64,000 nt of DNA from a virus, in the IMG/VR virus record IMGVR_UViG_3300026257_000002, positions 1 through 64,000 of that record. One strand, given 5' to 3'. The position numbers and the translations under genes were made by a program. The notes beneath the pieces are model-generated. The model made no database searches and was not told the origin of the DNA. It worked only from the letters and a program-made list of their open reading frames with translations. Positions 4,449 through 13,764 of this stretch are shown here, one piece after another; the stretch's first letter is position 1; each line of letters opens with the position of its first letter.

Positions 4449-4613
4449 TTACTGCCAATATTCGTCTAAAGCATCAAGTGATTTGTCAAGATACTTATTA
4501 GCACCAACGCATTCCCATTCACCCATCTCTCCACGGTCACACTTATCTCTTAACTCATTCTTAAGCTTAAGAAGTTTATGAGTCATATCAACTTTACTAA
4601 GTCTGCCGTTCAT
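4449..4613 (-). CDS. Hypothetical protein, 54 aa
   Basis: Starts MNGRLSKVDMTHKLL at 4611-4613 and ends at TAA 4449. It is mostly helical and charged, with two Cys (DKCDRGEMGEWECVG). It overlaps the end of the 27-aa ORF upstream by 17 bp. Unknown function. Confidence 0.6.
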   Translation of the reverse strand: MNGRLSKVDMTHKLLKLKNELRDKCDRGEMGEWECVGANKYLDKSLDALDEYWQ

Positions 4614-4680
4614 AAGAACCCCCATTTTTGGTATTTAGGTGAGATTTATTGATTCTGTAAATATATTGTGTGCTAGTCAT
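4597..4680 (-). CDS. Candidate 27-aa ORF
   Basis: The frame reads MTSTQYIYRINKSHLNTK and ends TAG at 4597. Its ATG overlaps the stop of the 53-aa gene as CATGA, a coupling typical of this genome. It is very small, so support rests on the overlap and gap-filling only. Confidence 0.4.
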   Translation of the reverse strand: MTSTQYIYRINKSHLNTKNGGSYERQT

Positions 4681-4838
4681 GACTTGTTTATAGTCCGTTT
4701 CTCCTTTGTGTTGTTGTAAATAATTACTCTACCGTTTTCATGAGTGAATACTAATTCATCATGATGCCCCCAGCAGAGCTCTTCATATATGGCATTCAAT
4801 CTCTCCATATCTTCATAAAGTTGATTGGGATTAGTCAT
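4677..4838 (-). CDS. Hypothetical protein, 53 aa, first gene after promoter
   Basis: Starts MTNPNQLYEDMERLNAIYEEL. The sequence GGAG about 12 bp upstream is a plausible ribosome-binding site. The N-terminus is helical; the C-terminus (RVIIYNNTKEKRTINKS) is beta-like and basic. Resembles a small cyanomyovirus protein from memory. Lies 40 bp downstream of a strong sigma70-like promoter. Confidence 0.65.
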   Translation of the reverse strand: MTNPNQLYEDMERLNAIYEELCWGHHDELVFTHENGRVIIYNNTKEKRTINKS

Positions 4839-12917: not shown

Positions 12918-12942
12918 TTATTTAGTAAGAGGTTATGGACAA

Positions 12943-13014
12943 CTCCCAAGGCAGGATTTGAACCTGCGACCGAGTGATTAACAGTCACCTGCTCTGCCAC
13001 TGAGCTACTTGGGA
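12943..13014 (-). tRNA. trnN: tRNA-Asn (GTT)
   Basis: A 72-nt cloverleaf on the minus strand. Acceptor TCCCAAG pairs with CTTGGGA and the discriminator is G. The anticodon loop CTGTTAA gives GTT, with a 5-bp anticodon stem. The T-arm GCAGG/CCTGC holds TTCAAAT. CCA is not encoded. It lies directly downstream of the tmRNA. Confidence 0.95.
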
Positions 13015-13038
13015 ATAAAGGGGGGCTTCTCACCCCCC

Positions 13039-13053
13039 CTGAACTACTTGGGT
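13039..13053 (-). repeat. Partial copy of tRNA-Asn 5' end
   Basis: The minus strand matches the first 15 nt of tRNA-Asn (acceptor and D-stem start) at 13 of 15 positions, 39 nt before the real tRNA and within the 3' part of the tmRNA precursor. Possibly a recombination scar. Confidence 0.55.
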
Positions 13054-13083
13054 AACAAGGCTAGTTTAACCCCGATCTCCCAT

Positions 13084-13134
13084 TCAGGCAGTCACGAGTT
13101 CGCGAGTGCGGGAGAATGCTACGATGTTATTCGC
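13084..13134 (-). other. tmRNA tag reading frame
   Basis: GCG resume codon through TGA gives ANNIVAFSRTRELVTA (16 codons plus stop). It has the same length and Asn-x-Ile-Val-x-Phe-x-Arg core as cyanobacterial tags as I remember them, which end Ala-Pro-Val-Ala-Ala. A GCT codon directly before is an alternative resume site. Confidence 0.75.
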
Positions 13135-13282
13135 AGCAGGTGTAGATGTTTTAGCATCTGTTGTTTGCTTATCCAAGCAGGTTTCAGTCACAATCGTAAT
13201 AACCCGTCTAAACCGTGGCACCCCCATGAATGGAGGTGAGGAGAGTCGAACTCCTGTCCGAGCCTATTCGTAAAGTCACCTA

Positions 13283-13300
13283 TTCCTCTTTGAAGAGGAA
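13283..13300 (-). other. Perfect 8-bp hairpin at 5' end of tmRNA precursor
   Basis: TTCCTCTT/AAGAGGAA with a 2-nt centre lies between the tRNA-Thr 3' end (13301) and the tmRNA T-arm. It may be a processing stem for releasing the flanking RNAs. Confidence 0.5.
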
Positions 13301-13372
13301 TGCCATCAGGAGGATTTGAACCACCGACCTTGGCTTTACAAAAGCCCTGCACTACCACTGTGCTATGATGGC
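13301..13372 (-). tRNA. trnT: tRNA-Thr (TGT)
   Basis: A 72-nt cloverleaf. Acceptor GCCATCA pairs with TGATGGC, discriminator A. The anticodon loop TTTGTAA gives TGT, reading ACA. The T-arm loop is TTCAAAT. CCA is not encoded. Two bases separate it from tRNA-Arg. Confidence 0.94.
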
Positions 13373-13374
13373 GA

Positions 13375-13448
13375 CGATTCAGGTTGGACTCGAACCAACG
13401 ACCGACTGCTTAGAAGGCAGTTGCTCTACTCCACTGAGCTACTGAACC
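13375..13448 (-). tRNA. trnR: tRNA-Arg (TCT)
   Basis: A 74-nt cloverleaf. Acceptor GGTTCAG pairs with CTGAATC, discriminator G. The anticodon stem ACTGC/GCAGT holds loop CTTCTAA, giving TCT for AGA codons. AGA is common in this AT-rich genome and rarer in host genes, the usual reason offered for carrying it. Confidence 0.94.
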
Positions 13449-13452
13449 AAAG

Positions 13453-13534
13453 TGGGCAAGGTTGGATTTGAACCAACGTAGGCAGAGCCAAGGGATTTAC
13501 AGTCCCTCTCCTTTAACCACTCGGACACTTACCC
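13453..13534 (-). tRNA. trnY: tRNA-Tyr (GTA)
   Basis: An 82-nt class II tRNA with a long variable arm. Acceptor GGGTAAG pairs with CTTGCCC, discriminator A. The anticodon loop CTGTAAA gives GTA. It is the first of the RNA genes in transcription order. Confidence 0.94.
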
Positions 13535-13551: not shown

Positions 13552-13764
13552 TCATGTGTAGTATGCTTGAAAGTATTTAACAATACCATCAGAACGAACA
13601 TTACCCTGAGACACCCAATCATGGCAACACTGAGTGATGCTGTTCATACTATACATTGGTTCTTTATTTTTGTCAAGCACAGATCCAAAACGAGTGAGGA
13701 GAAGACTGTAAACTTTTTGCCTCAACTCCATACGGTCATCGCTATAACGCCAATCATCAATCAT
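13552..13764 (-). CDS. Conserved-looking phage protein, 70 aa
   Basis: Begins MIDDWRYSDDRMELRQKVYS. An internal Met (MELRQK) is another possible start. Helical N-terminal half and a Tyr-rich C-terminus (GIVKYFQAYY). I recall very similar small proteins in other cyanomyoviruses; function unknown. Likely co-transcribed with the tRNA block. Confidence 0.65.
   Translation of the reverse strand: MIDDWRYSDDRMELRQKVYSLLLTRFGSVLDKNKEPMYSMNSITQCCHDWVSQGNVRSDGIVKYFQAYYT

Follow-up and report, generated by a model that had tools for sequence, protein, structure and literature searches.

A cyanophage genome carries a circularly permuted tmRNA gene with an altered tag ending

We found that a cyanophage genome carries a circularly permuted, two-piece tmRNA gene of the cyanobacterial type and that its tag, ANNIVAFSRTRELVTA, starts like the tags of picocyanobacterial hosts (ANNIVxFSR) but ends in VTA instead of VAA. 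The gene lies on the minus strand of the window (the whole stretch of 64,000 nucleotides that was analyzed), which belongs to a 132,522-base (132.5-kb) virus record. It is phage encoded, being part of a phage genome and having phage homologues distinct from the host genes, and the tmRNA is very probably functional. As an overall explanation we favor, with some confidence, a working rescue tmRNA that would rely on the SmpB and alanyl-tRNA synthetase (AlaRS) of the host and that has a changed, probably weaker, degradation signal. The existence of permuted tmRNAs in phages is not new; the new part, of moderate novelty, is the pattern of tag endings, which the original prediction of this gene overlooked.

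The minus strand at 13309-13021 matched the Rfam cyano_tmRNA model (RF01851) end to end, with 132 bits and an E value of 1.3e-35 (cut-off, 70 bits), and scored 68.9 bits with tmRNA_permuted (RF04321; cut-off, 47 bits). ARAGORN called it as tmRNA* (permuted) with a span of 12993-13322. Thus, both searches that had been proposed as a check, ARAGORN and the cyano_tmRNA model, matched, and the lack of any hit to permuted models, named in advance as counterevidence, was not the case. A pattern for the permuted junction matched once in the window and not at all in 100 shuffles, and the folding z-score was -4.16, better than 200 shuffles. The expectation that standard tRNA scans miss the gene holds for plain tRNA scans and for the annotations of related phages but not for ARAGORN. 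The parts of the gene are as follows.

13021-13309, minus: permuted tmRNA, whole covariance-model match (RF01851, RF04321, ARAGORN)
13239-13255, minus: T-arm of the acceptor piece, 5-bp stem and loop with GUUCGA (stem 100% paired in 40 phage genes)
13232-13238, minus: 3' strand of the acceptor stem, CACCUCC, including U70 (pairing and sequence)
13231, minus: discriminator A73 (sequence)
13226-13230, minus: intervening spacer UUCAU, 5 nt (sequence)
13219-13225, minus: 5' strand of the acceptor stem, GGGGGUG, including G3 (7/7 pairs, G3-U70)
13203-13214, minus: D-arm-like GGUUUAGACGGG, with A in place of the C of the usual GGUUUCGAC
13087-13134, minus: tag frame from resume codon GCG (alignment to the host resume codon)
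13084-13086, minus: tag stop codon UGA (sequence), where the RF04321 match terminates
13110-13115, minus: 5' arm of the stop-flanking helix, UCUCCC (fold, pairs, covariation)
13076-13081, minus: 3' arm of the stop-flanking helix, GGGAGA (fold, pairs, covariation)
13092-13105, minus: 5-bp hairpin UCGCG-AACU-CGUGA within the tag codons (minimum-energy fold; double changes at 4/5 pairs in phages)
13042-13072, minus: pseudoknot 3' of the tag, GGGU/ACCC and AACUA/UAGUU (compensatory changes at 5/5 pairs of the second stem)
13020-13039, minus: hairpin of a G run and a C run at the 3' end of the mRNA-like piece (sequence; inside the cyano_tmRNA model)

This arrangement bears out the permuted order read earlier from the sequence: T-arm, acceptor 3' strand, 5-nt spacer, acceptor 5' strand, D-arm-like segment, and tag. 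The 7-bp acceptor stem with G3-U70 forms all of its pairs across the spacer, and the 6-bp helix around the tag stop was found as described (13115-13110 with 13081-13076). No CCA is encoded after the discriminator A73, and the outermost 9 bases of the match overlap the 3' end of tRNA-Thr. The short spacer was considered as an oddity of the phage gene and rejected, since spacers of 5 to 6 nt also occur in 26 of the 90 distinct host genes, taken from picocyanobacterial genomes, that served for comparison. The start of the tag differs by method: ARAGORN gave AKTSTPAANNIV, while alignment to host tags placed the start at the GCG at 13134.

In 40 phage sequences, 93% of the cells at the named pairs held standard pairs, and changes on both sides were seen at 18 of the 37 pairs. 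Double-changed cells numbered 126 compared with 35 in shuffles (none of 500 shuffles reached the observed value), and sliding the partner by 1 to 3 columns lowered the pairing to 41 to 56%. Acceptor position 5-68 occurs as C-G, U-A, G-C, and A-U, and both the pseudoknot and the stop-flanking helix are kept by compensatory change across the phage genes. G3 was invariant across the 155 distinct genes, even though an A3-U70 pair is also possible; the search pattern itself imposed U70, so the evidence from the conservation of G3-U70 is limited to G3. Because the helices, the pseudoknot, and G3-U70 persist with compensatory changes elsewhere, the tmRNA is under selection. The call of a two-piece tmRNA gene was supported by two covariance models, by ARAGORN, and by covariation across phage relatives.

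The gene lies in a cluster with four tRNA genes, all on the minus strand.

12942-13015, minus: tRNA-Asn(GUU), downstream in the same cluster (ARAGORN and Rfam)
13301-13372, minus: tRNA-Thr(UGU), directly upstream (ARAGORN)
13373-13449, minus: tRNA-Arg(UCU) (ARAGORN and Rfam)
13452-13534, minus: tRNA-Tyr(GUA) (ARAGORN and Rfam)
13648-13676, minus: sigma-70-like promoter candidate TTGACA-17-TATAGT upstream of the cluster (11/12 consensus positions)

The promoter candidate is weak evidence for a sigma-70-like promoter ahead of the cluster, and promoter-like sites were not above chance in the window (1 seen and 2.3 expected from shuffles). Genes near the cluster encode a 2OG-Fe(II) oxygenase, a phage tail lysozyme, a transaldolase, and a nuclease. 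A transaldolase gene also lies 3' of the tmRNA in S-CAM1 and S-CAM3, and 2OG oxygenase genes lie 5' of it in S-SSM7 and Sf-FS3. The cyanophage source that had been proposed is supported by the virus record, by DNA matches to cyanomyoviruses (Syn1, S-RIM44, and ACG-2014d), by the nearby transaldolase and tail lysozyme genes, and by the homologues in cyanophages. No SmpB or ClpP gene was found in the virus record, which is possibly partial, or in six relatives, so host factors would be needed.

Homologues were present in the isolates S-CAM1, S-CAM3, S-SSM7/S-SSM6a, Sf-FS3, and S-CBWM1, in the single-cell virus AG-345-P14, and in many further IMG/VR contigs. The isolates that we examined lack a tmRNA label in their annotation, and several have a hypothetical-protein coding sequence across or into the gene (1982-2200 in the S-SSM7 locus, 2233-2442 in that of Sf-FS3, and 1970-2095 in that of S-CAM1). 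These coding sequences are probably not real genes, so that predictions of protein genes that are probably wrong mask the tmRNA in several cyanophages with sequenced genomes. In genes of the S-SSM7 type (2000-2275 in the S-SSM7 locus, and relatives), an insertion in the tag is able to form a hairpin and lengthens the tag to 24 residues. The pseudoknot region 3' of the tag is apparently lost in four phage tmRNAs with VAV or PSLV endings (L257, L270, L276, and L297), and in a 248.8-kb viral contig (L266, 2790-8171) the tmRNA lies within a cluster of approximately 25 tRNA genes.

In comparison with the host ssrA genes, the family resemblance is evident, but the phage gene stands apart in the tree, in its model score, and in the end of its tag. 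In a tree for which the tag codons had been removed, one branch with an SH-aLRT support of 100% separated the 57 phage sequences from the 87 host sequences. This tree is unrooted with long branches, and it is compatible with, but does not prove, a single origin of the phage genes. Second tmRNA-like copies were seen in two host genomes. In one, of a picocyanobacterium (L382; G038:C1:925000-929000), a reduced tmRNA-like gene at approximately 1931-2149 on the minus strand, near an integrase-like gene, has a phage-like acceptor stem (GGGGGUG/CACCUCC) and the frame ANNIKRTERTLAIAA, and it is possibly a prophage or island copy. In the other (L381; G017:C8), a degraded second copy at approximately 4488-4782, lying some 3 kb away from the intact gene of the host, might be the remnant of an element integrating at ssrA.

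The host tags were always 16 residues long and ended in VAA in 88 of the 90 distinct genes, the other two ending in IAA and VLA. The phage tags kept ANNIV or ANKIV and mostly also FSR, but their lengths ranged from 14 to 24 amino acids; since extraction demanded AN(N/K)IV, more diverged phage tags fall outside these counts. Residue 6 was mostly Ala in the phages and Arg or Ser in the hosts, with Ala in no host tag here. Among 56 distinct phage genes, the endings were VAA (14), ATA (13), VAV (9), VTA (6), ALV (5), SLV (3), and ATV (3), with TLV, SCA, and VPA found once each. In two freshwater phage contigs (TRQSAPVAV and TRHSAPVAV), only the last residue departs from the host-like SAPVAA.

By ARAGORN calls, a terminal AA was absent from 24 of 27 distinct cyanophage tags, while 54 of 68 tags of other tmRNA types in viral contigs ended in AA. 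The latter set consists of tmRNAs caught by a loose first pattern scan of viral sequences, and some of its 14 tags without a terminal AA are clearly miscalled, so that AA endings are probably more frequent than 54 of 68; some of these contigs may hold host tmRNAs at prophage borders. The change is not universal in cyanophages, as the AA end is kept in one group (STVAA) and in a few QAAPVAA tags, and on the phage tree parsimony required 7 switches between AA and a different ending. All cyanophage tmRNA genes may come from one ancestor, so the 27 tags are not independent. In the openly searchable papers, we found no description of a cyanophage-wide departure from the VAA ending.

Pooled over pairs, the pN/pS of the last three codons was 0.06 in hosts and 0.66 in phages, and that of phage codons 1 to 9 was 0.15; these counts ignore relatedness, and codons 1 to 5 are partly fixed by the extraction pattern. 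The constraint on codons 1 to 9 indicates that the peptide is selected and, most likely, translated. Most of the constraint on the terminal signal is gone in the phages.

Published degradation data give a basis for what the altered endings might do. Tags ending in AAV or ASV are degraded less than those ending in LAA or LVA in Escherichia coli (PMC9097571), and the decreasing order of strength in Synechocystis is LVA, then AAV, then ASV (PMC3446811). By analogy, the phage tags ending in V should be weaker degrons. The published weak variants end in V, and in the literature searched we found no direct degradation measurement for VTA or ATA; we regard a weakened degradation signal in the phage tag as an even proposition.

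For tmRNAs in general, alanyl charging via G3-U70 and SmpB-dependent entry are established. The window tmRNA would most likely be cotranscribed with the neighboring tRNAs. Host tRNA-processing enzymes would cut at the spacer, which would be excised during maturation, and CCA would then be added. Host AlaRS would charge the molecule with alanine through G3-U70 and, with host SmpB, it would release ribosomes that have stalled on broken mRNAs in the infected cell, and the ribosome-rescue role proposed earlier fits this picture. The VTA ending would lower recognition by a ClpX-type protease of the host, so that the phage would keep ribosome rescue while the tagged chains would be destroyed less efficiently. 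As a tentative extension, cyanophages may uncouple trans-translation: their tmRNA would rescue ribosomes and displace that of the host, and its tag would be poorly read by host ClpXP, so that unfinished proteins, including those of the phage, would be spared or the protease would not be flooded. Should the altered end prove to be a weaker signal, then lytic viruses have modified a quality-control RNA of their hosts to recycle ribosomes while sparing nascent proteins their usual destruction. The endings VTA, ATA, VAV, ALV, SLV, and ATV would then form a natural series to set against cyanobacterial proteases and a concrete handle on why phages carry tmRNA.

A somewhat unlikely alternative is a functional tmRNA with a drifted tag end, in which rescue alone is useful, degradation is irrelevant in a short lytic cycle, and the last codons are relaxed and follow the needs of the RNA hairpin. 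In the last three phage codons, pN/pS lies near neutrality and not above 1, and the variable length of the phage tags points the same way. The covarying hairpin does lie in the tag codons, and constraints from it could explain part of the amino acid change. However, the last residue is Ala or Val in all complete phage tags, the final three residues are mostly small and nonpolar, the frame is intact in every phage tag of the set, and codons 1 to 9 are still constrained. It is improbable that the phage tmRNA is an antagonist that competes with the host tmRNA for SmpB and AlaRS, as proposed for mycobacteriophage DS6A. A molecule with only a tRNA-like domain, resembling that of DS6A, has been shown to inhibit tmRNA (Mao et al. 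2009, as cited in PMC4131195), and these phages encode no SmpB. Against this, the gene has a complete mRNA-like part encoding a peptide that is under selection, and an antagonist would have no need of the conserved resume codon, stop helix, and pseudoknot. A decayed, nonfunctional remnant is more improbable still. It could account for the C-to-A change in the near-invariant D-arm region, where 4 of the 66 phage genes, those of the window and its close relatives, have GGTTTAGAC and the other 62 have C, as do 90 of 90 host genes, but the seven acceptor pairs, the T-arm, the stop helix, and the pseudoknot are intact, and the relatives show compensatory changes. Finally, apart from the family resemblance to ssrA, hardly anything speaks for a recent pick-up of host DNA or an assembly or binning artifact: recent capture is ruled out by the fully supported branch dividing host from phage genes, sequenced isolates with homologues already contradict this reading, and the model score is far from that of intact host genes.

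The preferred reading, a working rescue tmRNA with a changed tag end, can be set beside known systems. The window gene resembles the cyanobacterial two-piece tmRNA (RF01851) in its permuted order, with T-arm and acceptor 3' strand first, and in G3-U70, the ANNIV resume context, the stop-flanking helix, the downstream pseudoknot, and the lack of an encoded CCA. It differs in its score (132 bits versus about 277 to 327 bits in intact host genes), in its acceptor stem (GGGGGUG/CACCUCC versus GGGGCUG or GGGGUUG in hosts), and in a tag with Ala at residue 6 and a VTA end, where the host tag ends in APVAA. The novelty suggested earlier for a phage copy is reduced: a 2022 survey presented with the methylophage Melnitz reported 53 two-piece tmRNAs in phages, 50 of them marine or aquatic, and showed the genes of cyanobacterial phages and those of cyanobacteria as a single lineage (PMC9004378). 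Like the window gene, these are complete permuted tmRNAs of marine T4-like phages, and AG-345-P14, named there, carries a relative of the window gene; we saw no treatment there of how the tags end. The Melnitz gene itself, unlike ours, is of the alphaproteobacterial type, and the tag of pelagiphage HTVC008M (ANFNEYALAA) retains the usual ALAA end. Another paper lists 79 phage tmRNA sequences (PMC11915505), and the phage tmRNAs listed in PMC4131195 are those of mycobacteriophages and phage G only. Mycobacteriophage DS6A likewise bears a tmRNA derivative, but it has only the tRNA-like part and no tag part, whereas the window gene is complete (PMC4131195). Bacillus phage G also encodes a tmRNA with a tag lacking the AA end (AKLNITNNELQVA, ending in QVA), although its gene is of the standard one-piece form and both phage and host are unrelated to those considered here.
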